From NCBI GenBank assembly GCA_024698705.1, contig JAILQX010000047.1:62001-126000 (forward strand): DNA of 64,000 nucleotides. Reading direction: 5' to 3'. The notes below the pieces were generated by a model. The model was given only the letters and a program-made list of their open reading frames with translations. It was not told the origin of the DNA and searched no databases. Made by a program: the position numbers and the translations under genes. Numbering within the stretch: the first letter of the stretch is position 1; every line of letters begins with the position of its first letter. This document shows, one piece after another, positions 1,896 through 21,500 of the stretch. This stretch comes from Lachnospiraceae bacterium. GTDB taxonomy: Bacteria > Bacillota > Clostridia > Lachnospirales > Lachnospiraceae.

Positions 1896-4800
1896 ATGAG
1901 AAAGAACACCAAGAATCCAATTGTAACAAAAGCAGTTGCATTAGCTATGACAACAATGATAGCCACATCTACTGTATCGATCCCCACATTGGCGGATGAA
2001 GAAATGATCCCGGCACCGAAGAAAGATACAAATTCGGTTTCAGAGGCAGCAGATCAGACGTCTGCTGAGGTAAAAGCGGTTGAAAAGGACGTTGAAAAGA
2101 CCAATAAAGCAATAGGCAATGTAGAGGAACCTTCAGAGAAAAGTGTTGTAAAGACAACGGAAAGTGTAGATGCTGCAGTTGCTGCACTTATCACAGCCGG
2201 ATATGAAAAGGAAGATGGCAAGATCGACAAGACTGCTGAGAAACTTGATTCGGATGTTGACAGCGCCGAGACAGATGCTGAAGCACTTACCAAAGATGTT
2301 GATGAAATTAAGAAGAGCGAAGCCGAGATCAAGGACAACACGGATGATATGAACGATCAGGCAGAAGCAGCGGAAAAGGTTGCCGATGATTATGGAAAGA
2401 AGGTTGATGACGCTTCTGCTGAAATAGATGAGCTGAAGGACCAGATCAGTAATGCCAATGATACCGTAACCGCAAATGCTGCATACGATAAGGCAACAGA
2501 GATAAAGAACAGCGCGATCAGTGCATATAATGATGCTGTTACGGATGTGAATGATATTAATGAAAAATATAAAGAAGCAGTTGAGAAATGTGATGCTGCT
2601 CAGAAGGCATATTCAGATGCTATAGCTGACGGAAAAGAAGATGTAAAAAAAGCTAAAGAAGATCTTGAAAATGCAAAAAAAGAAGTTAAGAGTTTAGAAA
2701 AAGCAGCTAAGACAGCGGCAAGTGACGCAAAGAAAGAATATGATAACACCGTAAATGCAGCAAATGCAAAGGTGTATGCAGCACAAACTGCAGTTAACAG
2801 CGCTAAATATGAGAAAGCAAATGCAGAAGGAAAACTGTATTGGGCAAATCTTGGCCTTATTCAGGCCCAGTCAGTGAAGAATGCTGCGGATGCCGAAGTT
2901 AAAAGGCTTGAAAAAAAGATCGAGACTGCAAAGGAGAGTACTATCCCTGAATTGAAGAGCCAGCTTGATTCGGCAGTAAATAAACAAAAGGAGGCAGCAT
3001 CTGCATTAGAAAGCAGGAAGACGGAGGCAGCGACAGCAGCTTCTGACGTAGAAACAGCACAGAAAAATTTTGAAACAGCGCAGACAGATCTTTCAACTGC
3101 ACAGTCGGAAGCAGCAGAGGCGGCAACAAACCTGGAAGCTAAAAAGGCAGAAGTCACAACGTTGGAAGCAACAGAGGCGTCTTTGAAGTCAGCAGCAGAG
3201 GCAGCAGCAACAGATCTGGAAGCTAAACAGCAGCTTGCGAAAGATGCAAAGGATGTTGTGGATGGTCTGCAGAAACGGATAGACGCGATCGATATAGATG
3301 GACTTAAGGCAACATCAGCAGAGGCAAAGACCAAATATGAAACAGCTGTAGCTACCGAAGGATCTAAATCTACAGCAGCAAAGGAAGCAGAAGCTAAACT
3401 TAAAGAAGCAGAAGACGCAGTCAAGGATGCTTTAACCGAAAAGACAGAAGCGGAAGCAGCACTCGCCAAGGCAGAAGATGACAAGAAGGCAGCAGATCAG
3501 GAAGTTGAAGTTGCACAGAAGGCTGTGGATGAATTTACCTACACGATAGAAAAGGATGGTAAAGACGGAAGTCTTACGATCGCACAGAAGGAACTTGAAC
3601 AGGCAAAGACGGATCTTGCAAAGTCAGAAGCGATCGCTGCCATAAGAAAGGTTGAGCAGGAAGAGATAGATCTGTACAACAAATCTCTGGAAACCGATTG
3701 GTGGGGAAACCCGACACAGGATGCAATAATTGCACAGAATCAATTGGGTGCAAAGGATCTTGAGTTAGCACAGAACCTGATCCGTTATCAGTTAAGTGAA
3801 AACGGAGCCGCGAATATCGGTTTCACAATGAATGACAAAAATGAGATCGTTGCTACATATAATGTAGGAGATGAAGAGGTTTCAACCAGATTTGTTTATG
3901 GTTATGAAAGTGTAGATGATTACAATAATCAAGACACATCTTCACACTGGATCGTTATTTCTTCAGTAAATACGACGCCGGTATTTGAGGAGAAGGATGT
4001 TCCTACAGGTGAGAAATACTACGTAGACCATAGAAGAGACGGTTATGAGAAAAGGGTTGACTTATCGATATATGATGATCAGAAATATAAAATTATAAAT
4101 GCGACAAGGAACGATCTTCCGGTGAAGGTAGTGTATGAATGGAAGCAGACAAATAACAGTCGTCGGAATCCCAAATATGGCTGGGTAGAGATTATAGACT
4201 ATTATGAGTTGGAAAGAAAAGAGAAACAGTCTGTTCTGACAGGATATAAGGATTCTTACAGCGAGTACTACAAGGAGACATCATTCTTCGATCAGTACAA
4301 GGATCATACAACAGAAGCAGCACAGAAGGCAAAAAATGATGCCCAGGATAAGGTGGATGCGTTTACTTATACAGTAGAGAAAGATGGGGTGGACGGACCT
4401 CTTACACTCGCTCAGAAGGCTCTTGAAGCTGCTAAGGAGAAAGTTAATAATCTTCCTTCAAAAGAAGAATTGGAAGAAGCTGTAAGATCGGCTGCAGAGA
4501 AATACAATAAAGCCGTAGAAGAAAAGGGAAGTAAGTCAACAGAAGCTCAGACAGCAGCTCAGGAATTAAGTGATGCTAAAAAGGCTCTTGAAGAAGCTGA
4601 AGGTGCCAAGAAAAAAGCAGAAGGAGAGCTTGAGACAGCTATTTCCGATAAAGCCGCTTTAGAAGTAGAGCTTGCGGTTGCTAAGCAGGAACTGGAAGAG
4701 GCTGACAATGCAGTTACTACAGCAGAAGGAGTAAAGTCTAAGAAGGATTCGGAGTATTCAGGCGCACAGAGTGCTACGCAGTCAGCAAAAGGTCAGGTGA

Positions 4801-5960
4801 ATGCTTTGGAGGAACTCAAGTCACAGAAAGACGGACTTGTAGCTAAATATGAACAGGAAAAACAAAATGCAGAAAATGAGTTTGAAAGACTGAAAGGAGA
4901 AAATGAAAAAGCTCAGGATGCACTGGAAAAGGCAAAAAGTGCTAAATCCGACGCAGACAAAAAGGTAACCAGGGCACGCCAAAACTTAAACAATGCAAAA
5001 GGAAGTCTGACATTACTTCAGATAGCATATGGCAAGGCACAGATCGATCAAAAAGCTGCAGAAGGAAATCTTAAAAAAGTCAAGAATGATATAAAAGAGC
5101 TGGAAAAGAAAATTCGAACTGCAGAATCTAAAATAAAAACCAAAGAAGCCAAGCTTGAGACAGCACGGAAAGAAGCAAAGGCTACAATGGACGCTGCGGC
5201 AGAATTATTGAAAGATAAACAGACAAAGTACGGTGACTTAAAACTCAAAGCTGAGGCAGCTAAGAAAGCGGTTGAAGCAGCGGAGTATAATGTTCTGTCT
5301 GCCCAGAGAAGACTTGACAGACTTGCGAATTCCAATACATACGCTGAACTTGTGGGAGACTTCGAGAAACTTAAGGCCGATCTTGAGCAAAAACTGACAG
5401 ATGCTCAGAAAAAGCTTGATGAGAAAAAGAAGGAAGCGGACGATCTTGAAGATAAGGTTAAGGAAGCTAAGAACGAACTTGATAAGACAATAGCAAGGCT
5501 CACTCCTGTTATCGAAGATACAGGTGATGATCCATCAAGTGATGATAATGGCGATGCTTCATCTTCAACATTTACAGCTGCAGCAGGCGCAGCAGGAACG
5601 GATACAACTCTTACCGAAAATGTTCCTGCACCCGGAAATGGAAGCAGAACCAACAATGCTACAGCAATCAATAATGCACCGGTAACAAATAACAGTGTTA
5701 ATATCTCAAACAATGACATGCCCCTTTCACCGGGTACGGACAACAATAATGTTGATGCTGAAAGTGAAAAGAACGCACAGCCTCCGGTTAAGATAACAGA
5801 TAATGTAGCACCTCTTGCAGCAACACCTGAGGATGAAGGAGAGGCAATGAACTGGTGGTGGTTACTTCTTATAGCAGTTGCCGGAGCAACCGGAACAGCA
5901 TTATATGAGAATCACAAGAAGAAGGCGGCTAATGGCAATAAAGGATCAAATAACAACTAG
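1896..5960 (+). CDS. Very large membrane-anchored coiled-coil surface protein
   Basis: The 1354-residue product starts with a Sec signal peptide (basic MRKNTKN, hydrophobic core, likely cut after TLA near residue 33). Most of the rest is Ala/Glu/Lys-rich heptad sequence (about residues 40-540 and 800-1200), predicted to form long coiled coils. A compact non-coiled region rich in Tyr/Trp (about residues 590-800) sits between two copies of a module recognisable by FTYTIEKDGKDG (residue about 549) and FTYTVEKDGVDG (about 825). The C-terminus has a Ser/Thr/Asn/Pro-rich spacer, then one membrane segment (NWWWLLLIAVAGATGTALY) and a basic tail; I see no LPXTG motif. It is probably a fibrous cell-wall-spanning adhesin or stalk. 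Ligand and function are unknown. The next genes encode a two-component pair that could control it. Confidence 0.75.
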   Translation: MRKNTKNPIVTKAVALAMTTMIATSTVSIPTLADEEMIPAPKKDTNSVSEAADQTSAEVKAVEKDVEKTNKAIGNVEEPSEKSVVKTTESVDAAVAALITAGYEKEDGKIDKTAEKLDSDVDSAETDAEALTKDVDEIKKSEAEIKDNTDDMNDQAEAAEKVADDYGKKVDDASAEIDELKDQISNANDTVTANAAYDKATEIKNSAISAYNDAVTDVNDINEKYKEAVEKCDAAQKAYSDAIADGKEDVKKAKEDLENAKKEVKSLEKAAKTAASDAKKEYDNTVNAANAKVYAAQTAVNSAKYEKANAEGKLYWANLGLIQAQSVKNAADAEVKRLEKKIETAKESTIPELKSQLDSAVNKQKEAASALESRKTEAATAASDVETAQKNFETAQTDLSTAQSEAAEAATNLEAKKAEVTTLEATEASLKSAAEAAATDLEAKQQLAKDAKDVVDGLQKRIDAIDIDGLKATSAEAKTKYETAVATEGSKSTAAKEAEAKLKEAEDAVKDALTEKTEAEAALAKAEDDKKAADQEVEVAQKAVDEFTYTIEKDGKDGSLTIAQKELEQAKTDLAKSEAIAAIRKVEQEEIDLYNKSLETDWWGNPTQDAIIAQNQLGAKDLELAQNLIRYQLSENGAANIGFTMNDKNEIVATYNVGDEEVSTRFVYGYESVDDYNNQDTSSHWIVISSVNTTPVFEEKDVPTGEKYYVDHRRDGYEKRVDLSIYDDQKYKIINATRNDLPVKVVYEWKQTNNSRRNPKYGWVEIIDYYELERKEKQSVLTGYKDSYSEYYKETSFFDQYKDHTTEAAQKAKNDAQDKVDAFTYTVEKDGVDGPLTLAQKALEAAKEKVNNLPSKEELEEAVRSAAEKYNKAVEEKGSKSTEAQTAAQELSDAKKALEEAEGAKKKAEGELETAISDKAALEVELAVAKQELEEADNAVTTAEGVKSKKDSEYSGAQSATQSAKGQVNALEELKSQKDGLVAKYEQEKQNAENEFERLKGENEKAQDALEKAKSAKSDADKKVTRARQNLNNAKGSLTLLQIAYGKAQIDQKAAEGNLKKVKNDIKELEKKIRTAESKIKTKEAKLETARKEAKATMDAAAELLKDKQTKYGDLKLKAEAAKKAVEAAEYNVLSAQRRLDRLANSNTYAELVGDFEKLKADLEQKLTDAQKKLDEKKKEADDLEDKVKEAKNELDKTIARLTPVIEDTGDDPSSDDNGDASSSTFTAAAGAAGTDTTLTENVPAPGNGSRTNNATAINNAPVTNNSVNISNNDMPLSPGTDNNNVDAESEKNAQPPVKITDNVAPLAATPEDEGEAMNWWWLLLIAVAGATGTALYENHKKKAANGNKGSNNN

Positions 5961-6094: not shown

Positions 6095-6131
6095 AAACAG
6101 TGTCCCTGCAGTATTTGCAGGGACACTGTTT
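6095..6131 (+). terminator. Strong hairpin between surface protein and response regulator
   Basis: A perfect 16-bp stem, AAACAGTGTCCCTGCA (6095-6110) with TGCAGGGACACTGTTT (6116-6131), and a 5-nt loop. The A-run on one side and T-run on the other fit a bidirectional terminator. Its core TCCCTGCA/TGCAGGGA matches the hairpin at 6009, so the two are related copies. Confidence 0.7.
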
Positions 6132-6136
6132 CATAT

Positions 6137-6144
6137 GGTACAAT
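6137..6144 (+). promoter_or_regulatory. Possible extended -10 element for the regulator gene
   Basis: TGG followed by TACAAT (6139-6144) forms a TG-N extended -10 box about 40 bases before the response-regulator start. No good -35 box is visible because the preceding bases belong to the hairpin. Confidence 0.35.
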
Positions 6145-6183
6145 TCGCATATCGGTGGTTGTATATTACAGCAAGGAGAGAGT

Positions 6184-6894
6184 ATGCGAATAGCTGTTTG
6201 TGATGATAATAAGCTTGATGCAAAACGTATAGAATGGGCTCTTTTGGATCTTGGAAAGGACATGGATATAACCTATTATCCATCCGGACACGAGCTTTTG
6301 GATGAGATGAAAAGAAGAGATGAAAGAGATCAGTTTGATGTTATCTTTCTTGATATCTATATGCCCGATGAAAATGGCATAGATGTGGCGGACAGTATAA
6401 AAGAGATATCATCTTCTACGGATATAATTTTTTCAACATCCAGCAAGGATCATGCGATCGAAGCGTTCAGGGTAAGGGCGATAGATTATCTGGTAAAGCC
6501 TTATGAAGAGATAGATATCATAAAGGCATTCGCAAGGGTCACCGTTTCGAGAAATGATGCATCCAAGGCACCGGTACTGCTGAATGCCGGTGGCGAGCTG
6601 AGACTGTTCAGACCCGAAACTGTTGTCCGGATAGAGAGTGACGGGCATTATACACGTGTGATCTCTGATGACGGAAATGAAGAGCAGGTGCGAAAGACCT
6701 TTGCGGAAGTGGCAGAGAGGTTTAAAGAGGGCTTTGTAAATATCAAGCGAGGTCTGATGATACGTATGGATCGTATAGAAGCGATAGTCGGCGATGAGAT
6801 CCGTATCTGTGACGGAACGGTCTATACCATGAGCCGGTCGAATAAAGAAGAGATCATTCGCAAATATACTGAATATATGGAGAACAAGCAGTGA
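6184..6894 (+). CDS. LytTR-type response regulator (AgrA/VirR class)
   Basis: The 236-residue product has an N-terminal receiver domain (residues 1-118; acidic CDDNK at the start, phospho-acceptor Asp57 in FLDIYMP, conserved Lys in YLVKPYE) and a C-terminal LytTR DNA-binding domain (about 133-232, with FVNIKRGLMI and MSRSNKEEI). The start ATG at 6184 is chosen because GGAGAG lies 3-8 bases upstream and MRIAVCDDN is the normal receiver start; an upstream GTG at 6100 would begin inside a hairpin. It overlaps the following kinase by 4 bases, so the two are translationally coupled. LytTR regulators commonly control surface proteins, peptides and virulence genes; the adjacent surface protein is a natural but unproven target. 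Confidence 0.88.
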   Translation: MRIAVCDDNKLDAKRIEWALLDLGKDMDITYYPSGHELLDEMKRRDERDQFDVIFLDIYMPDENGIDVADSIKEISSSTDIIFSTSSKDHAIEAFRVRAIDYLVKPYEEIDIIKAFARVTVSRNDASKAPVLLNAGGELRLFRPETVVRIESDGHYTRVISDDGNEEQVRKTFAEVAERFKEGFVNIKRGLMIRMDRIEAIVGDEIRICDGTVYTMSRSNKEEIIRKYTEYMENKQ

Positions 6895-9161
6895 ATAAAA
6901 GTGAATATAAGGGCGGAAAAACAAAACTGACGTCGATCAGGAATAGCTTGTGTTATTGCGGACTCGACAGAGAGCAGTATTTATATATCAGACCACTGAT
7001 AATGAGCAGAAACATAGGGATGCTCAGAATAGCGTCGTTTATCATAGGAGTAATGGGATTATCCTATTCAATTTTGTCGGCTTTCCTGCCTTTGGGCAGT
7101 GCGATGCTGTTCAGTTTTATAGGTATCGGCAGCGCGGTTATATTTTTAGTGCAGCATTTTTGGAAAAACAGGGGATCGGCATTGATACTTATACCTTGTT
7201 ATTTTCTGATGCTGCTTGTTTTTTTCTACGGATCGGCTCTTTCATGTTATCCTTCAAACAGAGAAGATACCGCGACAAGCATAGTCGTATTTCTTGTTCT
7301 CATGCCTATAGCGGTCATAGATGTTGCCTGGCGTATGTATCTCATGGTGCTATTGTCCGAGGCAGGTTTCCTGATCGCATCTTACATGCTCAAACCTTAT
7401 GATGTATTTGTAAATGACATGGCTAATACAGTGACATGTGTTTTTCTCGGTCTCATAGTCTATACGATCAATTCAATAGTAAGTGTCCGTGAGATCAACG
7501 GAGATGTCAGCAATACAAACCTTAAGAATATAGCAGATGAGGCAGTTGCCTCCAAGGAGGCAAAGAGCAAGTTCTTAGCCGAGATGTCTCACGAGATCAG
7601 AACCCCGGTTAATGTTATTCTGGGCATGAATGAGATGATACTCAGAGAATCGGAAGATGAAAGTATACTCAGCTATGCGACCGATATCAAGCTTGCAGGC
7701 AGGGGGCTGTTGTCGATAATCAACAGTATCCTTGATTTTTCCAAGCTTGAGGAGGGCAAGATGGATCTGCTTCACGTAAATTATGAACTTGGTTCTCTGA
7801 TTAACATACTCATCAATTATACAAAACAAAAGGCTCAGAAAAAAGGATTGATCTTTGAGGTTCATGTGGATGAGTATCTTCCGTCAGTTCTTAACGGAGA
7901 TGATGTTCGTATTTCTCAGGTCATCATGAATCTTCTTTCAAATGCTGTCAAATACACTGAAAAGGGAAGGATCATGCTTTCGATGACGGAGATATCGAGG
8001 GACAGTGACAGCATTGATATGAAGATAGTTGTAAGTGACACCGGAATAGGCATCAAAAAAGAGGATATGGGTAGGCTTTTTGAAACCTTCGAACGTCTTG
8101 ATGAGGAGAAAAACCGTCATATCGAAGGTACGGGTCTGGGTATATCGATCAGCGACATGATCCTTAAACTCATGGGAAGCAAGCTCGAGGTCAACAGTAT
8201 TTACGGAGTCGGTTCGGAGTTTTCTTTTGTAATAAAGCAGACTATAGTGGACAGTAAACCGATAGGCGATTATAAGTTATATTTCAAGGATATCAGAAAG
8301 CAGGAAGAGAATACTGTTCATCCAAGAGCTGTGGGTGCGTCCGTGCTTGTCGTCGATGATAATGATATGAATCTGAGAGTTGCCAAAAACCTCATGAAGG
8401 GAAACGGTATCATACCCGATATTGCATATTCGGGATCGGAGGCGATCGAGTTCATGCGAAATAAGCGATATCATATCGTTTTCATGGATATCATGATGCC
8501 CAAACTTGATGGTGTCGAGACTCTTGAGAAGCTTAAAACGGAGAATATACTGACTGAAGGTACTACCATGATAGCCCTTTCGGCAAATGCGATCGTCGGT
8601 GCAAAAGAGAAATATCTGGCTGCAGGCTTTGATGATTATCTGTCAAAACCCATTGAGACTGATGAGTTGGATGCCATGTTTGACAGGTATCTGCCCGAGG
8701 AAGTATTGGTATTTGGCGGAAAAACAGACAATGACGTCATAGATAAAGAACCGCCGGAACGCGAAGCGCCGGATGAACGGTCGACGAAGTCAACGCTTTC
8801 AAGAGCAGCTGTTGCCCGTCTTGAAAGCCTTGGCATAGATACTGAGACAGGACTGAAATACAGCTACGGGAAATATGATTTCTATATGGAGCTTTTGGGG
8901 TTGATCGTTGAGGAATATGAAACCAGGAGCAGGAAAATAGAAGGTTTTAAAGAAGCAGGTGATCTGAGAGAGTACTCTGTACAGGTTCATGCACTTAAAA
9001 GTTCCATGAAAACTCTGGGGGCAACAGACATGTCGGAAACGGCAAGAATGCTTGAAGAAGCAGCAAATAATAAAGACATTTCCTATATTGATGAGCACCA
9101 TCGTGACTTCATGAGAAGTTATGCTTCACTGGTCAGAGATATTTCGGATATTATCGCGTAA
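6891..9161 (+). CDS. Membrane hybrid histidine kinase with receiver and HPt domains
   Basis: The 756-residue product starts with a GTG that overlaps the regulator stop (GTGA). Residues about 50-205 form several membrane segments without a large extracellular sensor. Then follow a HisKA domain with His234 in EMSHEIRTPVN, an HATPase domain (N-box NLLSNAVKYTEKG, G1 DTGIGI, G2 GTGLGISI), a receiver domain (about 482-600, Asp533 in FMDIMMPK) and an HPt domain with His700 in VHALKSSMKTLGA. All phosphorelay residues are present, so a four-step relay is possible. A full relay beside a LytTR regulator is unusual, because AgrA-like regulators normally pair with AgrC-type HPK10 kinases. Confidence 0.9.
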   Translation: MNKSEYKGGKTKLTSIRNSLCYCGLDREQYLYIRPLIMSRNIGMLRIASFIIGVMGLSYSILSAFLPLGSAMLFSFIGIGSAVIFLVQHFWKNRGSALILIPCYFLMLLVFFYGSALSCYPSNREDTATSIVVFLVLMPIAVIDVAWRMYLMVLLSEAGFLIASYMLKPYDVFVNDMANTVTCVFLGLIVYTINSIVSVREINGDVSNTNLKNIADEAVASKEAKSKFLAEMSHEIRTPVNVILGMNEMILRESEDESILSYATDIKLAGRGLLSIINSILDFSKLEEGKMDLLHVNYELGSLINILINYTKQKAQKKGLIFEVHVDEYLPSVLNGDDVRISQVIMNLLSNAVKYTEKGRIMLSMTEISRDSDSIDMKIVVSDTGIGIKKEDMGRLFETFERLDEEKNRHIEGTGLGISISDMILKLMGSKLEVNSIYGVGSEFSFVIKQTIVDSKPIGDYKLYFKDIRKQEENTVHPRAVGASVLVVDDNDMNLRVAKNLMKGNGIIPDIAYSGSEAIEFMRNKRYHIVFMDIMMPKLDGVETLEKLKTENILTEGTTMIALSANAIVGAKEKYLAAGFDDYLSKPIETDELDAMFDRYLPEEVLVFGGKTDNDVIDKEPPEREAPDERSTKSTLSRAAVARLESLGIDTETGLKYSYGKYDFYMELLGLIVEEYETRSRKIEGFKEAGDLREYSVQVHALKSSMKTLGATDMSETARMLEEAANNKDISYIDEHHRDFMRSYASLVRDISDIIA

Positions 9162-9189: not shown

Positions 9190-9203
9190 TATACTTTTAA
9201 CTA
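9190..9203 (+). promoter_or_regulatory. Candidate promoter giving a leaderless start for the four-gene operon
   Basis: The 41-base gap behind the kinase gene holds TATACT (9190-9195). The expected transcription start is at or next to the A of the ATG at 9203, and no Shine-Dalgarno sequence precedes that ATG. The -35 region (TTTAAT near 9167) is weak. Confidence 0.45.
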
Positions 9204-12200
9204 TGGAACGGTATACCTATCAATTTGATGAGGTCAGAGGTTCTCTTGTATTTTCGGAACCGAAGATAGAACTTGAACTGAATAAGGGTGATGTTGTATC
9301 GGGGTCTTTTGACATCGAGGAGCAGAGCGGTCTGACGATGGAAGGATATGTGTATTCTTCCAATATTCGCATGCGTGTTGAAGACTCACATATAGAGGGC
9401 GACAATATCACGGTAGGTTATGAATTTGATTCGGTCGGCATGAACATCGGAGATACCCTTCGAGGCAATTTCAACATAGTCACGAACAGGGGCGAGTTCG
9501 TACTGCCGTTCACAGCTACGGTGCGAAGGAACAATATCACTTCTTCACTTGGCAATATCAAAAATCTTTTTCATTTTACGAATCTGGCAAAGAGCAACTG
9601 GGATGAAGCCATAGAGGTATTTTACAGTCCGGATTTCGATCAGATCATGTCAGGCAATGACAGCAGGTACAGAAGCCTTTACAAAGGGCTGACAGCCGGC
9701 GGCAATAAAAACTGCAACCTTGAGGAATTTCTTGTGGGGATCAACAAGAAATCCAAGGTCGAATACACACTCGACAAGGACAGTATAGTCCATGTCAATC
9801 CCAGCGATGACTTAAAAGAAACGATCAACTTAAGACGTAGCGGGTGGGGATATACGCTGATAGGAATAAAGGTGATCGGCGATTATATCAACATAGACAG
9901 GAACCGTATCAGCGGAAGTGATTTTGAAAATGACGTCTGCAGTATCGAAGTGAGCTTCGATACGTCGAAGCTTCATTCGGGCAAGAATCCCGGAAGGATC
10001 ATCTTTAAGACCATCTATGAGGAAAAGACCGTTGAAGTCGAGGTTGTGAAGAATACATTTGCGCGACGCACTTCTGCCGGTCACAAGAAGAAAGTCTTGT
10101 TCTCACTTACGAGACATTATATGGATTATACCATCAAGAAGATCAATATGAGCAAATGGCTGATGCTCACGGATGAGCTTCTCGGACACAGGGTGGACAT
10201 AGATGACGATGACATAGCGAACAGTCTGATGCAGGTACATTCGCTTATCATCCAGGAGCGTTTCAATGAAGCCAAATGGATCCTCGACAAGAGAGTCAAG
10301 AGCCGTATAGAGGAAGCGAACAACGAACTGTATTGCTATTATCTGTACATGAATGCACTCTACAGTGCTGATGATTATTACACCAAGGATATAGCTGACC
10401 AGATACAGAGCATATACAACAACGATCCTACAAACTGGCGCATATCATGGATACTTATGAAGATATCGGATGAACTGAGAAAATCTCCGGGAAAGAGATT
10501 TTCATTTTCACTCGAGCAGATCCGCATGGGTTGCTCAAGTCCGATCATATATCTGGAGGCCATAAAGGCGCTCAGCGAAAGCCCGTCGCTGCTCATGCAT
10601 CTTGAACGCGAGGAGAAACGCATACTTGTGTTCGGAGCGAAGGAGGGCATACTCACAAAGGATGTCATGGCACAGGTGTCATATCTGGTAATGAAGGTCA
10701 AGAACTTCGACAAGTCGTTACTTAAGCTGATGAGGATCATATACGACAAGACGGGAAGCGACGAGTCACTCCAGTCGGTATGTGTACAGCTGATGAAGGG
10801 CGGCAAGACCGGCCCGGAGTATTTTGAATATTACAACGAAGCGGTAGAGAGGAATTTCCCGCTTACCAAGCTTTACGAAGCATATATGATGTCGATGGAT
10901 ATACGCAGGGATGAGCCGATACCGAAGCGCGTACTCATGTATTTCTCATTCCAGTCGGAACTTCCGCCCAAGCAGAATGCATATCTCTATGCGTATATCG
11001 TAAAAAACAAAGAAGAGATACAGGATATCTATCTTGCATGCAAGGATAATATAGACAGGTTTGTGCTCAAGCAGCTCTATCAGGAAAGGATAGACCGCAA
11101 CCTCGCGTATCTTTACAGCGAGATAATACTTGAGGAAATGGATACCGAGGACAACCTGAAACAGTTTTCATCATTGCTGTTCAAGCATCTTCTTACGACT
11201 GATGACAGGAAATGTGTCAGGGCAATAGTCATAGATGACAGATTAAAGGATGAAAAGGTATATCCGTTAAGCGGAGGGCAGGCATTTGTCGCTCTTCTCA
11301 ATCCGGACTCGACGATACTTTTGGAGGATGAACTAGGTAACAGATTCTATAAGACAAAGGAGTATTCGACCGAAAAATTCTTCCTGCCGGGCAGGGTAAT
11401 GGGAAGAATGGAAAATGATGTGACCGACAATCTCGAGTACGATCTGTTTGTATGTGAAGACAGTCCGGATTTTCTTATCATATCCGATCAGAATGTGGAC
11501 AGATACAGATTCATCGAGAGCAACGAGGCGGTGGATGATGAATACAGGGGCAGGCTCAGACTGCCGCTCATAAGATACTACATGGAAAAGGATGACACAA
11601 AGGAAGTCGATGAGATACTGAACCATGTAGGATACGATGATATAGGTTACAAGGATTACAATGAACTCATCAGAACTATGCTTATCCGCGGAATGTATGA
11701 CAGAGCGTTGGATTTTGTGATCCGTTTCGGTGTTGAGAACATCGAACCTAAGATACTCGTGAGACTCACGGGCAGACTGCTCGAGAGAGACGGGTATGTG
11801 GAGAAAAATGAGATGACATATGCGCTAATGAGCGCATTTGACAGAGGAAAATACGACGATCACGGACTGAGTTATCTGACAAGATTTTACAGGGGTCCGA
11901 TAAAGACTCTAAGAAATATCTGGAAGTCAGCCAATAACTTCTATACCGAAACCTATGAGATATGCGAGCGCATGATCATACAGACGCTTGAAACCGGTGC
12001 ATACATCGGAGAAGAGGCGCTTGTCTTAAAGCAATATGTGGAAGGCGGAGCGCGCGTGGAAGTCGAGATGAAGTTTTTGTCGTATTATTCCCACGAATTC
12101 TTTGTCAAGGGCAGACCGGTGGACAGCTACATGTTTAGTGAGATCGAGCGGCTATACAGACGTGAGGGAGAGATCAGCGACGTATGCATGCTGGCATGGC

Positions 12201-12751
12201 TTAAGTTCATGGCGGAGGAACGCGACAGGGGAACGCAGCCTGATGAAGACGATATCGGCATGATAAGCGATGCATTGTGGTATTTGGTCATCAAGAAGGG
12301 TATCATTTTTCCGTTTTTTGCGACATTCAAGGATATATCCGCGGTGGCGGCCCAGATAAGCAATCAGACACTTGTCGAATACAAAGGCACACCCGAAGTA
12401 AAGACAGTGATCAATTATGTAATAAGCAAGGACCGGGAAGAAAACGGCGGGTACAGCAGAGAGGAAATGACAGACATGTACGGCGGTATATATGTCAAGG
12501 CTTTCCTGCTGTATTTCGGAGAATCACTGCAGTATTACATAACGGAGGAGCACGGCGGAGTCGAGCAGTTTACGGAAAGCGAGACAAGAAGCCTTACGGA
12601 GACTGCCGGAGACAGTGACAACAACAGATACTCGCTTGTCAATGATATAGCGGTGGCCGATACTCTCAAGGATTATGACACCACTATGAGACTGCTAGAA
12701 GAATATAAATACAAGGAATATCTGGTAAACAGCATTTTTGATGCCCAGTGA
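9203..12751 (+). CDS. Giant Ig-like / helical-repeat protein of unknown function (DUF5717-like)
   Basis: The 1182-residue protein has no signal peptide or membrane segment and is probably cytoplasmic. Residues 1 to about 290 look like two or three beta-sandwich (Ig-like) domains, rich in alternating hydrophobics and Gly turns (GDVVSGSFDIEEQSG; IGDTLRGNFNIVTNRGEF). From about 295 on it is mostly helical with irregular TPR/HEAT-like spacing, interrupted by a beta-rich segment around residues 670-790 (VYPLSGGQAFVALLNPDS). From memory it resembles the Lachnospiraceae family called DUF5717; that match needs a search. It is the first gene of a tight operon (25, 8 and -14 bases between genes). It has no catalytic motif that I recognise and may act as a scaffold. 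Confidence 0.6.
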   Translation: MERYTYQFDEVRGSLVFSEPKIELELNKGDVVSGSFDIEEQSGLTMEGYVYSSNIRMRVEDSHIEGDNITVGYEFDSVGMNIGDTLRGNFNIVTNRGEFVLPFTATVRRNNITSSLGNIKNLFHFTNLAKSNWDEAIEVFYSPDFDQIMSGNDSRYRSLYKGLTAGGNKNCNLEEFLVGINKKSKVEYTLDKDSIVHVNPSDDLKETINLRRSGWGYTLIGIKVIGDYINIDRNRISGSDFENDVCSIEVSFDTSKLHSGKNPGRIIFKTIYEEKTVEVEVVKNTFARRTSAGHKKKVLFSLTRHYMDYTIKKINMSKWLMLTDELLGHRVDIDDDDIANSLMQVHSLIIQERFNEAKWILDKRVKSRIEEANNELYCYYLYMNALYSADDYYTKDIADQIQSIYNNDPTNWRISWILMKISDELRKSPGKRFSFSLEQIRMGCSSPIIYLEAIKALSESPSLLMHLEREEKRILVFGAKEGILTKDVMAQVSYLVMKVKNFDKSLLKLMRIIYDKTGSDESLQSVCVQLMKGGKTGPEYFEYYNEAVERNFPLTKLYEAYMMSMDIRRDEPIPKRVLMYFSFQSELPPKQNAYLYAYIVKNKEEIQDIYLACKDNIDRFVLKQLYQERIDRNLAYLYSEIILEEMDTEDNLKQFSSLLFKHLLTTDDRKCVRAIVIDDRLKDEKVYPLSGGQAFVALLNPDSTILLEDELGNRFYKTKEYSTEKFFLPGRVMGRMENDVTDNLEYDLFVCEDSPDFLIISDQNVDRYRFIESNEAVDDEYRGRLRLPLIRYYMEKDDTKEVDEILNHVGYDDIGYKDYNELIRTMLIRGMYDRALDFVIRFGVENIEPKILVRLTGRLLERDGYVEKNEMTYALMSAFDRGKYDDHGLSYLTRFYRGPIKTLRNIWKSANNFYTETYEICERMIIQTLETGAYIGEEALVLKQYVEGGARVEVEMKFLSYYSHEFFVKGRPVDSYMFSEIERLYRREGEISDVCMLAWLKFMAEERDRGTQPDEDDIGMISDALWYLVIKKGIIFPFFATFKDISAVAAQISNQTLVEYKGTPEVKTVINYVISKDREENGGYSREEMTDMYGGIYVKAFLLYFGESLQYYITEEHGGVEQFTESETRSLTETAGDSDNNRYSLVNDIAVADTLKDYDTTMRLLEEYKYKEYLVNSIFDAQ

Positions 12752-12775
12752 TACGGATAGGACCGGAGAAAGGTT

Positions 12776-14020
12776 ATGTTTGGCTTAGGCGAAAAATATG
12801 TCGTTGGATACGACCTTTCAAATGAATATGCGCAGATCAGTTACATGACTCTCAGGGATGATATGCCCACAACCGTTTCGCTCACGAGCGGGGCCGAGGA
12901 CTATAACATTCCGGCCTGTCTCTTCAAAAGAAGTGAGGTCAACCAGTGGTTCTACGGTAAAGAGGCCATAAACTACAAAGAGGTTGAAGATGGAGAACTG
13001 GTGGAAGGATTATGGGAAAGAGCACTGGTCGGCGAAAAGATAAAAGTCGTCAATGATGAATTCGATCCGGTGGCATTGCTTGCGCTTTTTGTCAAAAGAA
13101 GTCTCGCATTGCTGGGGGGCATACGGCCCGACAGGATAGCGGGCATGATGTTTACGGTTCCCGAACTGACAAAGAGGGCTCTCGAGGTTCTTGAAACGGT
13201 GACCGGAGTGCTCGGAATGAAGAATACAAGGGTCAGTTTTGAAGGACGTGACGAAAGCATATTTTATTATGTGATCCATCAGCCTGCCGAGCTCTGGAAG
13301 CATGATGCATATGTATATGATTTTTCCGATAACAGCTTAAAGGGCTACAGATTCCATATCAACAGAAATGCCACACCGGCGGTTGCCATGGTCGATCGCA
13401 GGGATTACGGCATCAAATACGGTGATGTCAACAAGGATGAAGCATTTCTTGAGACAGTAAAAAATGATATGGAGGGAAGCGTTGTATCGCTTGCCTATCT
13501 CATAGGAAAAGGCTTTGAGGATGACTGGTGCAGGGAATCCCTCAGGGAGTTATGCAGAAACAGAAGGGCATTCAAGGGCAACAATCTCTACAGCAAGGGT
13601 GCCTGTTATGCAATGATGGAAAAGATGGTCGATTCGGATATGAGCAGGGCACTCATATTTCTTGGCAAGGATAAGCTGAAGGCCAATATCGGGATGAATG
13701 TCACAAAGGCCGGTGAAGAATCGTATTTTGCGATCCTCGACGGAGGAGAGAACTGGTACGATGCAAAGAAGGAATTCGATGTGATCCCGGAGAGAGGCAA
13801 CAGCTTTGAGATAACGGTCACGCCTCTTGACGGGATGAATATAAGAAACATAGAGATAGTGATCGACGGACTGATCATAAAGGAATTAAAGACGACAAGA
13901 CTGCATCTTAAATTTTTTATGGAGAGCGAAAACATGCTCAGGATATGTGCGACCGATATGGGTTTCGGTGAGATATATCCGACTACGTACAGATTATTTA
14001 CCAAGCAGATAGAGATCTGA
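12776..14020 (+). CDS. Hsp70/actin-fold (ASKHA) protein, DUF5716-like
   Basis: The 414-residue protein shows the ASKHA plan. A phosphate-1-like strand-turn is YVVGYDLSNEYAQISY (residues 8-23; compare IGIDLGTTNS of DnaK), followed by WFYGKEA (compare VGEEA), then IAGMMFTVPELTKRALEV (compare the VPAYF region). A phosphate-2-like strand, VYDFSDNSLKGY, lacks the usual GGG. YSKGACYAMMEK corresponds to the GAA adenosine-side motif. The last 100 residues look like a beta-sandwich. Several catalytic glycines are replaced, so ATP hydrolysis is doubtful although nucleotide binding is possible. SD GGAGAAAGG precedes the ATG. From memory it corresponds to DUF5716. Its neighbours suggest it is the core of a multi-protein complex. 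Confidence 0.65.
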   Translation: MFGLGEKYVVGYDLSNEYAQISYMTLRDDMPTTVSLTSGAEDYNIPACLFKRSEVNQWFYGKEAINYKEVEDGELVEGLWERALVGEKIKVVNDEFDPVALLALFVKRSLALLGGIRPDRIAGMMFTVPELTKRALEVLETVTGVLGMKNTRVSFEGRDESIFYYVIHQPAELWKHDAYVYDFSDNSLKGYRFHINRNATPAVAMVDRRDYGIKYGDVNKDEAFLETVKNDMEGSVVSLAYLIGKGFEDDWCRESLRELCRNRRAFKGNNLYSKGACYAMMEKMVDSDMSRALIFLGKDKLKANIGMNVTKAGEESYFAILDGGENWYDAKKEFDVIPERGNSFEITVTPLDGMNIRNIEIVIDGLIIKELKTTRLHLKFFMESENMLRICATDMGFGEIYPTTYRLFTKQIEI

Positions 14021-14028
14021 GGAATGAT

Positions 14029-14862
14029 ATGGGCAACGTGATATTGTGCGCGGGAGCGCTCGTCAAAAATTCATATTATGTGAAAGAGGCGTGCATACGT
14101 CTGTTTTCTGCAGAAGAACTGTGCTATTACGTGTACCATTATGCCTATCTCCTGACAGATGATTTTGTATCGGACAAGCTGGTCAGATGGGTACGTGAAG
14201 AACTCAAACTCGAAAAGACGGCCGATAAGATCGAGAGTATAAGAAACAAGAAAAATGCACTTGAGAATCTGGTGAGGATACTTAATAACGAGATAGGATA
14301 TTATTCCGAGGAAGAATGGAAGGGCCTGATAGCGGAGATAGAGAACAGCAGCACCATGTCCTATGAGGAGAGACGCAAGGTGAGAGCGGACGGACTCCTT
14401 TCGGGAGGTAAGTTCTCACAGGCACTTGAGGAATATGAGAACATAATCCGTGAAGAAAAGATAGATGATGACAGGATGAGGGCAGGCATTTACCACAATA
14501 TGGGAGTATGCTCGGCAAAACTGTTTTTATTTGAACGCGCGGCACATTATCTAGAGGAGGCATACAACGCATACGCCAATACGGAGAGCTATCATGAGAT
14601 GCTCTGCGCGATGAAGATGTATATGGAGCCGACCGAGTATCTGAATTATCTTTCCGAACATAAGGAAAGTTACGAGGATTCGCTCGAAGTCGAGAGAAAG
14701 TTTGAGATACTCAAGCTCAGCTGGGGTGAACAGGCCGCATACAAATATTTCAGGGAACTGGAAAGACAGAAGGAAGACGGAGGCTCGTATTACGAAAGCG
14801 TCGACAGACTGGTCGATGATGTGAAGGAAACATACAGGGGATACATAAATGGAAGTTGGTAA
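14029..14862 (+). CDS. TPR-like helical protein of the four-gene operon
   Basis: The 277-residue, all-helical, soluble protein starts 9 bases after the ASKHA gene, with GAGGAATGAT as the ribosome-binding site. Residues about 115-200 read as tetratricopeptide-like helices: ADGLLSGGKFSQALEEYENI, then GIYHNMGVCSAKLFLFERAA, then HYLEEAYNAY, with the small/large residue pattern of TPRs. The N-terminal 100 residues (CYYVYHYAYLLTDDFVSDKL) form a separate helical domain. A TPR protein beside an Hsp70-like protein is reminiscent of a co-chaperone, but this is inference. Its last 14 bases overlap the next gene. Confidence 0.6.
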   Translation: MGNVILCAGALVKNSYYVKEACIRLFSAEELCYYVYHYAYLLTDDFVSDKLVRWVREELKLEKTADKIESIRNKKNALENLVRILNNEIGYYSEEEWKGLIAEIENSSTMSYEERRKVRADGLLSGGKFSQALEEYENIIREEKIDDDRMRAGIYHNMGVCSAKLFLFERAAHYLEEAYNAYANTESYHEMLCAMKMYMEPTEYLNYLSEHKESYEDSLEVERKFEILKLSWGEQAAYKYFRELERQKEDGGSYYESVDRLVDDVKETYRGYINGSW

Positions 14863-16066
14863 GGGCTTTTTCAAAAGACTCTTCAAAAAAGAATATGAGG
14901 ATGATGACGATCTCTTTACCGAATATGAGATAGATTACGACAAAGAGGACAGTTATACATGGAACTGGGATAATCTGATCAATGACAGGCATCTTCTGAA
15001 ACTCAGCGATGATGTCCAGAGAGAGAAATATATCAGAAGCCTTGTGGAGCAGGTCAAGGATGCCAGTGACAACATGGATAAGCTGAGTGAGGAATACAAT
15101 TCCGTGACCGCGACGCTAAAGGACATGGATGAACTTGAGGCACTTCCGAGACACGAACTGAACGCCCTGCGTGAGATCGCGGAAGAGATGATCACTCTTG
15201 AAAATGAGAGGAGAAAATACCGCAAGACCAAGGCGGCAATGACCGATGAGCAGTTCAGGGCACTGGAGAGATTTGCAGACAGCATGCCCGGGGCATATGA
15301 TGATGTCAAAGAGGCGGAAGAGCAAAGGACAAAGATCAAGGGTGATCTTAAAAAGCTTGATGATGAGAAGCAGGGCTACATGTACAGAAATCATGAGCTG
15401 AAAAAAGAGATCGCCAACGAAAGAGGCATGATGGTGATCTGCCTGTTTGCGGCTGCAGTATGCATAGTGATGCTCCTGGTATTACAATTCGGTTTTAAGA
15501 TGGACACAAAGATCGGATACATACTCATCGCGCTTTTTATCGCGGTGGCCATCACATTTATCTATATGAGATTCCTGGATTCCTCAAAGGAACTGAAGAA
15601 GATCCATCGCAGTATCAACAGACTGATACTTTTACAGAATACCGTGACCATCAGATATGTGAACAACAAACATCTGCTGGATTATCTCTATACAAAGTAC
15701 AATACAACAAGCGCAAAGGAACTCGGAAAGATCTGGGACGCATACGAGGAAGAGCGTGAAAAACGTGCCCAGAACGAGGATAACGAGAAACAGCTGCTCG
15801 CACTCCAGCAGGAGTACAAGAAGAACCTGAAGCGATACAGACTGAACGATATCCATACATGGGTACACAATCCGCTTGCTGTCACGGATCATAAGGAAAT
15901 GGTGGAGGTGAGACATTCCTACATCCTGAGAAGACAGAAACTCAGGGCACAGATGGATTACAACAAGCGTCTCGCAAAGGAAGGTGAGACCGAGATAAGG
16001 GAGCTCATACAGGAATATCCGAGGTATTCGGGAGAAGTCATGGAGATGCTCGGAAGGTATTCCTGA
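14849..16066 (+). CDS. Membrane-anchored coiled-coil protein of the four-gene operon
   Basis: The 405-residue protein begins with a basic/amphipathic segment (KGFFKRLFKKEY) and an acidic patch, followed by coiled coil (about residues 55-190). Two membrane segments (about 192-212, MVICLFAAAVCIVMLLVLQF; about 221-241, IGYILIALFIAVAITFIYM) are joined by a short loop, and a second coiled coil runs to the C-terminus (about 245-400). Both long arms should face the cytoplasm, so it could tether the preceding soluble proteins to the membrane. The 14-base overlap with the TPR gene implies coupled translation. I do not recognise a named family. Confidence 0.6.
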   Translation: MEVGKGFFKRLFKKEYEDDDDLFTEYEIDYDKEDSYTWNWDNLINDRHLLKLSDDVQREKYIRSLVEQVKDASDNMDKLSEEYNSVTATLKDMDELEALPRHELNALREIAEEMITLENERRKYRKTKAAMTDEQFRALERFADSMPGAYDDVKEAEEQRTKIKGDLKKLDDEKQGYMYRNHELKKEIANERGMMVICLFAAAVCIVMLLVLQFGFKMDTKIGYILIALFIAVAITFIYMRFLDSSKELKKIHRSINRLILLQNTVTIRYVNNKHLLDYLYTKYNTTSAKELGKIWDAYEEEREKRAQNEDNEKQLLALQQEYKKNLKRYRLNDIHTWVHNPLAVTDHKEMVEVRHSYILRRQKLRAQMDYNKRLAKEGETEIRELIQEYPRYSGEVMEMLGRYS

Positions 16067-18551: not shown

Positions 18552-18574
18552 ATGGATAGTGGGGTGCTGTGTGT

Positions 18575-21500
18575 ATGCTTAAGGAAAAGGAAGAATTGTT
18601 TAATAATAATATATCAGAGATAGCAGACGTGAACCGTATGGTTTTCGTGTGCTATTTTATTTGTGTTACGGTCCTTTCCATAGGCGCTGTCCCGATGTAC
18701 TGGTTCGGTGATACAACATGGCATATCGCAGATCCGCTGTTCTATTACCTGAGCATGTGGCTGCCTCTTCTTGCGGCATATTACGCTTTCTTAAGAAGAA
18801 AAGACACGATGCTGATGCGTGGGATAGTCTATGGCGCGGTACTTATATTCTATACATTTGTTTTATTTACCGGTAAAGGCGTGCTTTTCGGACTTATTGT
18901 CCTGCCGATGCTCATGACGGCGGTCGCGTATGCGGATCTCAGGTTTGCAACATTTGTTTCCATCATTTACGTGTGCCTGAACGGATTGAACGTGATATGG
19001 AATTATCTGGTCAACGTTGACAGAGCGGATGTACTTGACCGATTCGTTGTATTTCTTGTAGTGGGAGCCACCGCACTCTTCATGAATATCTGTGCCTATG
19101 TGGTCAAACGCAGACAGGAGCGCAGGACGGCCGAGACCGATAAGGAACGAGACAGGTTTAAGGCTATCGTATCCGTCGGTGTTGCGAAGATATTCGAATA
19201 TGATATCAATAATGACATGGCCATGTTCGTTGACAGTTCCTCAGGTGAGTACGGAACGGAGCAGTATTTCTGTAATTTCGCTTCGATAGCAAAACAGAAG
19301 AGATATATACTGTTCGCGGACTGGTTCAAATTTGATGAGATCCTTCAGGAGATAAAGTCCGGAGCGACCATCATAGACAAGGAACTGCGTGTAAGGGAGA
19401 CCAGGGACGAATATCGCTGGTATAAGATCAGAGGCAGGGTCATTTATGATGAGGACGGACATGCCGAGAAAGCGATCGGTTCCATGGAGGACATAGACGA
19501 CGAGAAGAAACTTGAGTACAGGCGCGCGGACGAGAAGATGAGAGATCCTCTCACAAAACTCTATATGAAGCCGTATATCAACGATAAGATCGACGCATTG
19601 CTCAAGAGCGAGAGCAACGAAAAGATAATGGGCTTCTTCTACATAGACATCGATAATTTCGGCAGTATCAACGATGAGATGGGAGCAGCCTTTGGAGACG
19701 AGATACTTAAGAATATAGCCGAGGATATCTCGGATCTGTTTTATGAGACCGACCTGTTCGGCAGAGTTGGCAATGACGAATTCGTTGTCCTTATGCGCGA
19801 TGTTCCGGATAAAAAGGATATCGAGAAAAAGGTCAAGGACATAAGAAAGGTTACATCAGAAACCTATGTCGGTGAAAATGATAAGCTGGGTTGTACCGTC
19901 AGCATCGGTGTTTCGACATATCCTTACGACGGAGTGACATACACGGAACTCTTTGCGAATGCAGACAAAGCACTGCAGCTGGCACTGAGCAAGGGCAACA
20001 ATCATTATGACATATATAATCCTCTTAAGGAAAATGCATATGCGACTCTCGTATATGAGCAAACAGGACTGAGCAAAAACAACAGATACGATTTCGAATT
20101 CAGTAACTACGGAATGGAATCACTTGCGGAACTTGCATTTAAACTTATAGATGAGAGCAAGGATACTGACAGTGCCATCAATCTTCTTATCAGGCAGATC
20201 GTACGTCAGATGGGCATAGATGCCGTGGTCATCAAAGAGAAGACCGGTGACAATACACTTACGATCCTTTACGAATACGGTATGGAAAACAGTGTATCCG
20301 GAGGGGTCGGTTCGGAGATAGCATACAACAGAAAACAATGGGATGATCTTGAATCCAATTACAAGTTCAGCAACGGTATACTTGCCATTTCCAGCCCGCA
20401 GGATATAGTAGGCGATTCGGAGATGACATTTATGCTTGCTCTCGGCATAGAATCCTATGTCAGTGTCGCATATTATGACAAGGGTGATTTCTGCGGGACA
20501 ATGGACTTCATTGATTTCAACCATGAGAGGATATGGAACGAGACCGACAAGAACACCTTCAAGACCATTGCCAATGTCGTTTCCTCTTATCTGCTCAAGA
20601 TGAAGGCTTACGAGACCGCTTCCGAGACGGTGGAGAGGCTGACAGGTTATGATGTTGTGACCGGCTTATACAAATACGAAAAATTCCTCACTCTTGCAGG
20701 CGATTATATAGCCAATGCTTCTCACGGCAATTACGCCATGGTTTATACCGATATAGGCAATTTCAAATATCTCAATGATACCTACGGTTATGAAAAGGGT
20801 GATCAGGTACTTAAGGAAATGGCAGACACGATCATCGGCTACGACAAGTATGTCATTGTAGCAAGCAGAGTATTTTCGGATAATATGATCACACTTGTAA
20901 AGCTTGGCGATGCGGATGAAGATGCACTGAAGAGACTGCTTGAAAAAGCCGGGATAAAATTCTCCGAAAAGATACATAAGCAATATATCAACAGCCGCCT
21001 GGATGTACGTATAGGCGTATGTACATTTACGATAAGCGGGGCACCCGTACCGATCAAGAATATCATTTCCAATGCAAATATGGCTCGAAAACGCGCCAAG
21101 CTGCCGGGTATGCCGAGGTGCATATTCTATGACGAAAAGATGGGCTTTGAAGCCAAGAACGAGATCGACTATGCCAATGATATGGAAACGGCTTTCAAGA
21201 ACAAAGAATTCGTCGTTTACATGCAGCCTAAGATCAACTTAAAGACCAATAAGATCGAAGGCGCCGAAGCTCTCGTAAGATGGAAGAAAAATGACGGAAA
21301 TATCATTTACCCGAATGATTTCATACCGGTATTTGAGAAGAATAAGAGCGTTACCCAGCTGGATTTCTTCGTGTACGAGGAGGTCTGCCGTTACATAAGG
21401 CAGAGGCTGGATGAAAACCTGCCGATCGTAAGTATTTCCGTAAATGTTTCGCGTGTACATCTGTATGCGATCGATGAGATAATCGATTTCGTAAAGGGGC

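Follow-up and report, generated by a model that had tools for sequence, protein, structure and literature searches.

What does a bacterial family keep in an operon whose second product has the fold of Hsp70? The question is raised by the window analysed here, a stretch of 64,000 nucleotides from a Lachnospiraceae bacterium (contig JAILQX010000047.1), in which four genes, called A to D below, follow each other on one strand over roughly 6-7 kb. An earlier note, made from the sequence alone, had read this operon as a membrane-tethered chaperone-like or cytoskeletal machine and had named DUF5717 and DUF5716, families without assigned function, for its first two proteins. The follow-up analysis reads the operon as what remains of a larger ancestral machine with four Hsp70s, of which the scaffold and a dead Hsp70 were kept and the live Hsp70s were lost. 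The four genes are the following:

9203-12751, forward strand: gene A, open reading frame (ORF) of 1182 residues, DUF5717_N plus DUF5717 by Pfam
12776-14020, forward strand: gene B, ORF of 414 residues, DUF5716_C by Pfam, a pseudo-Hsp70
14029-14862, forward strand: gene C, ORF of 277 residues, with conservation in the N-terminal segment and degenerate TPR-like helices after it
14849-16066, forward strand: gene D, ORF of 405 residues, two hydrophobic helices between long helical, coiled-coil-like stretches

The coordinates, the gene lengths and the gaps of 24, 8 and -14 bases (A/B, B/C and C/D) given by the earlier note were reproduced by the ORF listing of the window, and Pfam agreed with both families named there. 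B matches DUF5716_C (PF18980) at E = 3.8e-92, with 308.8 bits against a curated cut-off of 34.7, and is therefore a member. A is a full member of DUF5717, matching PF18984 (DUF5717_N) and PF18983 (DUF5717) above the cut-off along the protein (E = 2.9e-269 and 2.7e-85; 896 and 286.7 bits against a curated cut-off of 25 each). Both proteins are plain members of these families, which are by name of unknown function, while C and D matched no Pfam family above the cut-off. In the literature searched, which was open-access with most subscription papers outside its scope, no function was found for the two families, in line with the earlier note, or for the operon. The one article there that mentions either DUF name deals, judging by its title, with something else; the three accessions were absent from this literature, and no tie of DUF5716 or DUF5717 to Hsp70 or to a larger operon was found there.

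The nature of B is apparent from its fold. An AlphaFold2 model built from 39 sequences (mean predicted local distance difference test score, pLDDT, 91.6; predicted template-modelling score, pTM, 0.88) gave 391 matches in the PDB by Foldseek at E <=1e-3, the best at 6.6e-19. The 50 matches listed are all Hsp70s or entries containing one, Ssz1 in the fungal ribosome-associated complex (RAC) among them, with template-modelling (TM) scores by query of up to 0.65 and identities of 9-13%. The model divides B into two domains:

about residues 8-298: degenerate nucleotide-binding domain without subdomain IIB (AlphaFold2, Foldseek)
about residues 299-414: beta part of the substrate-binding domain (SBD-beta), lidless (AlphaFold2, Foldseek)

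The ASKHA-type fold that had been proposed for the second protein is thus present in B as that of an Hsp70. At the level of sequence, B matched neither PF00012 (E up to 1) nor any PDB sequence (E up to 10), and because of this last result the link to Hsp70 came from the fold and from an ortholog in another family. In the operon of genome G713, this ortholog, Hsp70-2, matches DUF5716_C (E = 2.2e-33) as well as HSP70 (E = 1.8e-14), and in this way ties B to Hsp70 by sequence.

B does not have the residues of a working enzyme. Residue labels follow the numbering of E. coli DnaK, in which K70, E171, T199 and D201 are the catalytic residues. In the alignment with DnaK, T11, E171, T199 and D201 are kept in 0 of 39 B sequences and K70 in 0 of 38; G342 and S343 are also kept in none of the 39, and D8 (34/39), D194 (23/39) and G341 (39/39) are retained. 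Replacements at the catalytic positions are mostly variable, with S or D at 171 and G at 343 recurring. Moreover, subdomain IIB, which is the docking site of GrpE on Hsp70, has a median of 30 residues in B (range 19-36), as against 90 in DnaK and 89 in Hsp70-2, the medians in DnaK and the other Hsp70s lying at 85-122. The SBD-alpha lid has a median of 2 residues in B, and is missing as well from Hsp70-1, Hsp70-2 and Hsp70-3 of the larger operon described below. One DnaJ row (from locus L113) in the 128-row alignment was excluded from the residue counts and the tree; it stays in the IIB and lid lengths and in the tallies of B replacements, and the quoted medians are unchanged. In other words, B shares with bacterial Hsp70s such as DnaK and HscA the topology of the nucleotide-binding domain and SBD-beta, and is related to them by descent through Hsp70-2, but it is a pseudo-Hsp70 that lacks the catalytic residues, subdomain IIB and the lid. 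B does not appear to function as an Hsp70 or as an actin-type ATPase.

The state from which B is derived is found in other families of the order Lachnospirales. Here, "family" denotes the analysis group f1, which we take to be Lachnospiraceae; the NCBI boundary differs, with Candidatus Epulonipiscium placed within Lachnospiraceae. Twenty regions from eight other families, several of them from close relatives (for example, G726 and G756), carry a larger operon. In total, 24 such regions were fetched, and four (L041, L051, L052 and L056) were not extended and stand outside the 20-region counts. The larger operon contains A, as an N-terminal gene of ~400 residues and a C-terminal gene of ~900 residues (one frame in some regions), followed by Hsp70-1 (554-581 residues), X, a protein with a C-terminal GrpE domain, Hsp70-2 (472-535 residues), Hsp70-3 (539-572 residues), Hsp70-4, an Hsp70 with a C-terminal VWA domain, then C and sometimes D. 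Domain names come from Pfam for the operon of G713, D from G717 and the short X from G694. C carries strong TPRs in 17 of the 20 regions, and D is present in 5. The order Hsp70-1, X, Hsp70-2, -3, -4 holds in 18; the exceptions are G707, where the contig ends, and G755, where the gene at the position of Hsp70-2 was not identified as such. Inserted genes occur in some regions (G722, G743, G773). Of the 19 genomes that have Hsp70-4, 18 show DTTGS as a motif in the VWA part, G755 not fitting the pattern.

Three of the four Hsp70s are intact in their active sites. All catalytic residues are kept in Hsp70-1 (20/20) and Hsp70-3 (19/19), and in Hsp70-4 wherever a row covers the position (18 or 19 rows); in Hsp70-2, K70, T199 and D201 are kept in 0 of 18 sequences, E171 in 2 and T11 in 8. 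The chaperone-like machine suggested earlier stands in its full version in other families, where it comprises three Hsp70s that are intact as well as a GrpE and a VWA domain, whereas it is reduced in the family of the window. A scan of named sequences with Hsp70-3 returned, among the 80 loci listed, 27 at 63-87% identity with Clostridia or Bacillota titles; the remaining 53 had identities of <=33%, as general Hsp70s would give.

The descent of B was examined in a tree of 66 of the 128 alignment rows, thinned by fixed steps (8 Hsp70-1, 8 Hsp70-3, 7 Hsp70-4, all 18 Hsp70-2, 17 of the 39 B and 8 DnaK), whose branches are long, as the tree program warns. B is monophyletic, with a support of 97 in the Shimodaira-Hasegawa-like approximate likelihood ratio test (SH-aLRT), and is joined by Hsp70-2 of G694 (98) and of G724 (99); Hsp70-2 and B together are separated from the live Hsp70s by a branch with support 100. 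Topology tests rejected both a grouping of B with Hsp70-3 (approximately unbiased test, p-AU 1.6e-47) and a position of B outside Hsp70-2 (p-AU 1.6e-4). Catalysis was thus lost already in the ancestral operon, in Hsp70-2, and subdomain IIB was lost later, within the family of the window. G694, the nearest outside lineage, looks intermediate, with live Hsp70s and IIB kept and X short (279 residues). Hsp70-4 and C of this genome are each split into two ORFs (L037:1343-3384 and L037:208-1231), which are assembly errors or decay in progress.

The family lost not only the live Hsp70s but also the GrpE-domain protein and the GrpE-docking subdomain of B, and these last two losses coincide. With a mean column identity of 79%, the Hsp70-3 profile matched 39 of 87 genomes of the order outside f1 and none of the 9 within it. 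At the same threshold it matched none of 299 f1 genomes, where at most four candidates were scored for each genome among the rows displayed; the 39 of 87 serve as positive control. The profile of X matched all 16 control genomes from other families, with best matches of 108-602 bits, and found no match of control strength in 47 f1 genomes. Nine of these 47 gave 22-30 bits over only the last 66-185 positions, as general GrpE would give, and the weak match in the window's genome lies directly beside dnaK. A search of five f1 genomes with PF00012 returned DnaK and MreB-type proteins, with a second Hsp70 copy or more in two genomes; together with the absence of Hsp70-1 and Hsp70-4 from the operon, this points to the loss of both in the family. 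Two Hsp70 pieces were considered as candidates for Hsp70-1, -3 or -4 and rejected: L107 of the window's genome is DnaK/HscC-like, and L113 is a C-terminal piece of DnaK. The latter (G000:C17:224717-225505) stands beside a DnaJ gene as a second, partial dnaK with 570 bits to the genome's own DnaK; it may stem from a contaminating contig or be a genuine duplicate.

The operon is a trait of the order Lachnospirales, nearly fixed in one family and patchy in others. DUF5716_C is present in 293 of 299 sampled f1 genomes, and in 243 of the 246 that are >=90% complete and <=5% contaminated; of the 293, 286 carry a single match and seven a pair, as counted from the listing. Among the six genomes without it, three have A and three match neither A nor B; in two of those with A only (G495 and G525), A reaches the contig end on the side of B. 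In a phylum-wide sample, DUF5716_C was found in 5 of 398 genomes, all five from f1, and in a class-wide sample DUF5717_N was above the cut-off in 10 of 291, all from f1, with one more (G886) below it. At the level of the order, DUF5717_N was present in 50 of 96 genomes, namely 9 of 9 from f1 and 41 of 87 others. In viral contigs, no relative of B was confirmed.

Gene order is conserved in relatives for the first three genes, as had been expected, although it is less constant for the fourth. All 38 f1 genomes read have A, B and C as direct neighbours in the order of the window, so their clustering is not due to chance; D follows in 11 of 20 extended f1 loci and in the window. The 38 genomes comprise 33 short loci (L002-L034) and 20 extended ones (L057-L076), with 15 genomes in both; the loci were taken from the top of the search listings rather than randomly, and the window itself (L001) was left out of the family counts. 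The flanks are shared as well. A gene on the opposite strand 5' of the operon, presumably cobD-like, occurs in 9 of 21 loci from the family and 10 of 20 regions from other families, and a presumably valS-like gene 3' of the operon in 5 of 21 and 4 of 20. These counts are minima, given the short regions, and the window has neither gene nearby. The shared flanks place the small and the large operon at the same genomic site. The match to valS in G732 (E = 8e-34) is not counted, since it probably comes from a paralogous synthetase. In locus L077 of G694, a valS-like gene 3' of the operon is followed by a gene for a TPR protein, and the genes beyond it presumably correspond to spoIIAA-spoIIAB-sigF; a TPR gene related to this one also lies 3' of the operon in G717, G724, G755 and L065.

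The AlphaFold2 model of A contains both kinds of domain announced for the first protein, Ig-like and helical-repeat:

about residues 15-119 and 187-283: Ig-like domains (AlphaFold2 model)
residues 290-658 and 729-1052: alpha-solenoid (AlphaFold2 model)
residues 661-725: beta insert within the solenoid (AlphaFold2 model)
residues 1056-1130: beta-sandwich, then C-terminal helices (AlphaFold2 model)

Its mean pLDDT is 83.4. Foldseek matched A to ciliary central pair entries, the SPD-2 domain of CEP192, and the Ctr9/Paf1, SKI and IFT-A solenoid complexes; with TM scores by query of <=0.17 among the 50 matches listed, this supports the domain types only. The TPR-like character ascribed to C is weak in the window (TPR_2, 10.8 bits against a cut-off of 27) and strong in the ortholog of another family (TPR_19, 72.9 bits against a cut-off of 25, in the operon of G713). 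As for D, a simple hydropathy scan placed hydrophobic helices at residues 194-212 and 222-240, in line with the two transmembrane helices between coiled coils described before; a closely spaced pair of this kind is also found in 11 family relatives and five other-family orthologs. The same scan marked a single stretch in B, residues 98-116, which is a helix of the B model. By its hydropathy, D is a putative membrane tether, present in many lineages though not in all. In G722, G732, G743 and G773, from two other families, mutually homologous membrane proteins of 375-440 residues with 3-4 hydrophobic stretches (for instance, L053:1821-2993) are encoded directly 5' of A, and these are perhaps an alternative tether to D.

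What, then, might the retained genes do? The reading that we favour, at a probability of roughly 0.55, is that A, B and C, with D where it exists, form the core of the former four-Hsp70 machine and now act as an ATP-independent holding or assembly scaffold, tethered to the membrane where D is present. In such a complex, A would be the scaffold, B a subunit that needs no nucleotide and uses conserved surfaces of lobe II and SBD-beta to bind A or a peptide, and C an adaptor, with D tying the whole to the cytoplasmic face of the membrane. It would be a constitutive platform, and its client one that almost all members of the family need. In the ancestral machine, the live Hsp70s would have acted on this client, with the dead Hsp70-2 (or B) as a fixed subunit of the scaffolded complex; in the window's family the fixed part alone would remain, and the client would be held or assembled without ATP. 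Evolutionary distances are consistent with a joint function. Among 21 f1 genomes they correlate at r = 0.89 for A-B, 0.84 for A-C and 0.69 for B-C, and the partial correlations given RecA are 0.81, 0.71 and 0.47, values that 2000 permutations attained 0, 0 and 1 times.

Several observations weigh against this scaffold reading. RecA, a single gene, is a thin control, and shared history is not fully removed from the correlations; the physical complex of A-D is a hypothetical one. The pTM of the A model is 0.54, which leaves the relative arrangement of its domains unsure. D was not found in 9 of the 20 extended family loci, so such a tether is not universal. Conservation in B is 0.505 in SBD-beta, against 0.474 and 0.495 in the two lobes of the nucleotide-binding domain, values too close for peptide binding to stand out as its role. 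Three genomes that are 89-98% complete (G426, G488 and G621) match neither A nor B, and the operon may be dispensable in some members of the family. Finally, two proteins of relatives, Hsp70-3 (E = 3.9e-11) and the VWA fusion (E = 2e-7), match PDC-M61B, a candidate defence family of PADLOC, which would be more in keeping with the conflict reading discussed below.

The strongest competing explanation, though a rather unlikely one, is a relay to the housekeeping DnaK and GrpE, in which B would hold clients with low affinity and hand them over, the general pair having taken over from the lost dedicated Hsp70s, as in the fungal Ssz1/Zuo1/Ssb system. Ssz1 is, like B, without a lid but with SBD-beta, has lost ATP hydrolysis and works in a fixed complex, yet is an active chaperone (PMC7083937). 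There are differences too: Ssz1 can still bind ATP, and it is paired with Zuo1, a ribosome-bound protein with a J domain; nothing comparable is seen for B. A separate origin of B and Ssz1 seems probable. A general DnaK is available in the five f1 genomes searched with PF00012 (in pieces in G495), and the ancestral operon carried live Hsp70s, both of which would suit a relay; but no J domain is listed for the four window proteins or for ten other-family operon proteins (for the TPR protein, among the best 25 of 29 matches), and nothing in the gene order of the loci read ties A-D to dnaK. An improbable alternative, suggested by the parts list of the larger operon (Hsp70s, GrpE, Ig-like and helical repeats, TPR and VWA), is a biological-conflict system like those that Kaur et al. 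2020 predicted, where an effector is under the control of Hsp70, GrpE and FNIII/TPR proteins. That article describes an HSP70/GrpE theme with Hsp70, GrpE, a second Hsp70 in a subset, and FNIII with J domain or TPR, and places vWA proteins in other themes of the GAP1-N2 GTPase-centric class (PMC7159879). The larger operon differs from the GAP1-N2 systems in its four Hsp70s, one of them dead, and the system studied here in being nearly fixed in one family. No GTPase was found by Pfam among the operon proteins scanned, and GAP1-N2 was absent from 9 of 9 genomes in a search that works, as it matched in one of 14 control genomes. The PADLOC matches extend to four of five proteins of relatives, the TPR and GrpE-domain proteins more weakly, whereas the four window proteins had none at E up to 0.01. 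A patchy distribution is usual for defence systems, which contrasts with the near-fixation of B, mostly as a single match, and with the constant genomic place of the operon across families.

Two further readings concern B itself. That its pocket, though changed, still takes up a nucleotide or some other ligand, and that B is a sensor rather than a scaffold, receives some encouragement from the retained D8, D194 and G341, but the complete loss of K70, T11, E171, T199, D201, G342 and S343, with mostly varying replacements, makes this very doubtful. Least probable is a cytoskeletal machine based on actin-like polymerisation of B: the ASKHA fold and a partner, D, with predicted membrane helices would suit it, but the 50 structural matches listed for B are Hsp70 entries rather than MreB, ParM or FtsA, SBD-beta is present, and the phosphate-binding residues are lost. 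From the original proposal, the ASKHA/Hsp70 fold is retained and the membrane link is carried by the hydropathy of D, whereas no result points to a cytoskeleton. A 2024 survey of DnaK duplication contains neither "Lachnospir" nor "Clostridi" in its main text.

The surroundings of the operon in the window add a few observations. Immediately 5' of it, positions 6100-9161 hold, as judged by eye, a response regulator-like gene and a hybrid kinase-like gene; positions 18569-21934 encode a 1121-residue protein that reads like a membrane GGDEF/EAL protein, and positions 1896-5960 a 1354-residue ORF whose start resembles a signal peptide. Rfam and tRNA scans of the window gave no matches. Promoter-like sites (21, against 13.3 with a standard deviation of 3.5 in shuffles) are somewhat above expectation and terminator-like sites (7, against 4.6 with a standard deviation of 2.7) near it; neither was used as evidence.

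Lachnospiraceae are among the main bacterial families of the animal gut, and this operon is kept by nearly every sampled member. Tentatively, it may represent a core organ of the family, that is, an Hsp70-derived machine that shed its motors and exchange factor and became a nucleotide-free structural complex with a dead Hsp70 as its indispensable part. The four-Hsp70 ancestor, with three live members, one dead, its own GrpE domain, a VWA domain and one scaffold, may then be a new kind of chaperone assembly. If the losses in G426, G488 and G621 are real, these genomes would be natural knock-outs. Since the order holds both the full four-Hsp70 state and the reduced core with its dead Hsp70, it makes a question testable: what does selection keep in an Hsp70 once its ATPase is gone?

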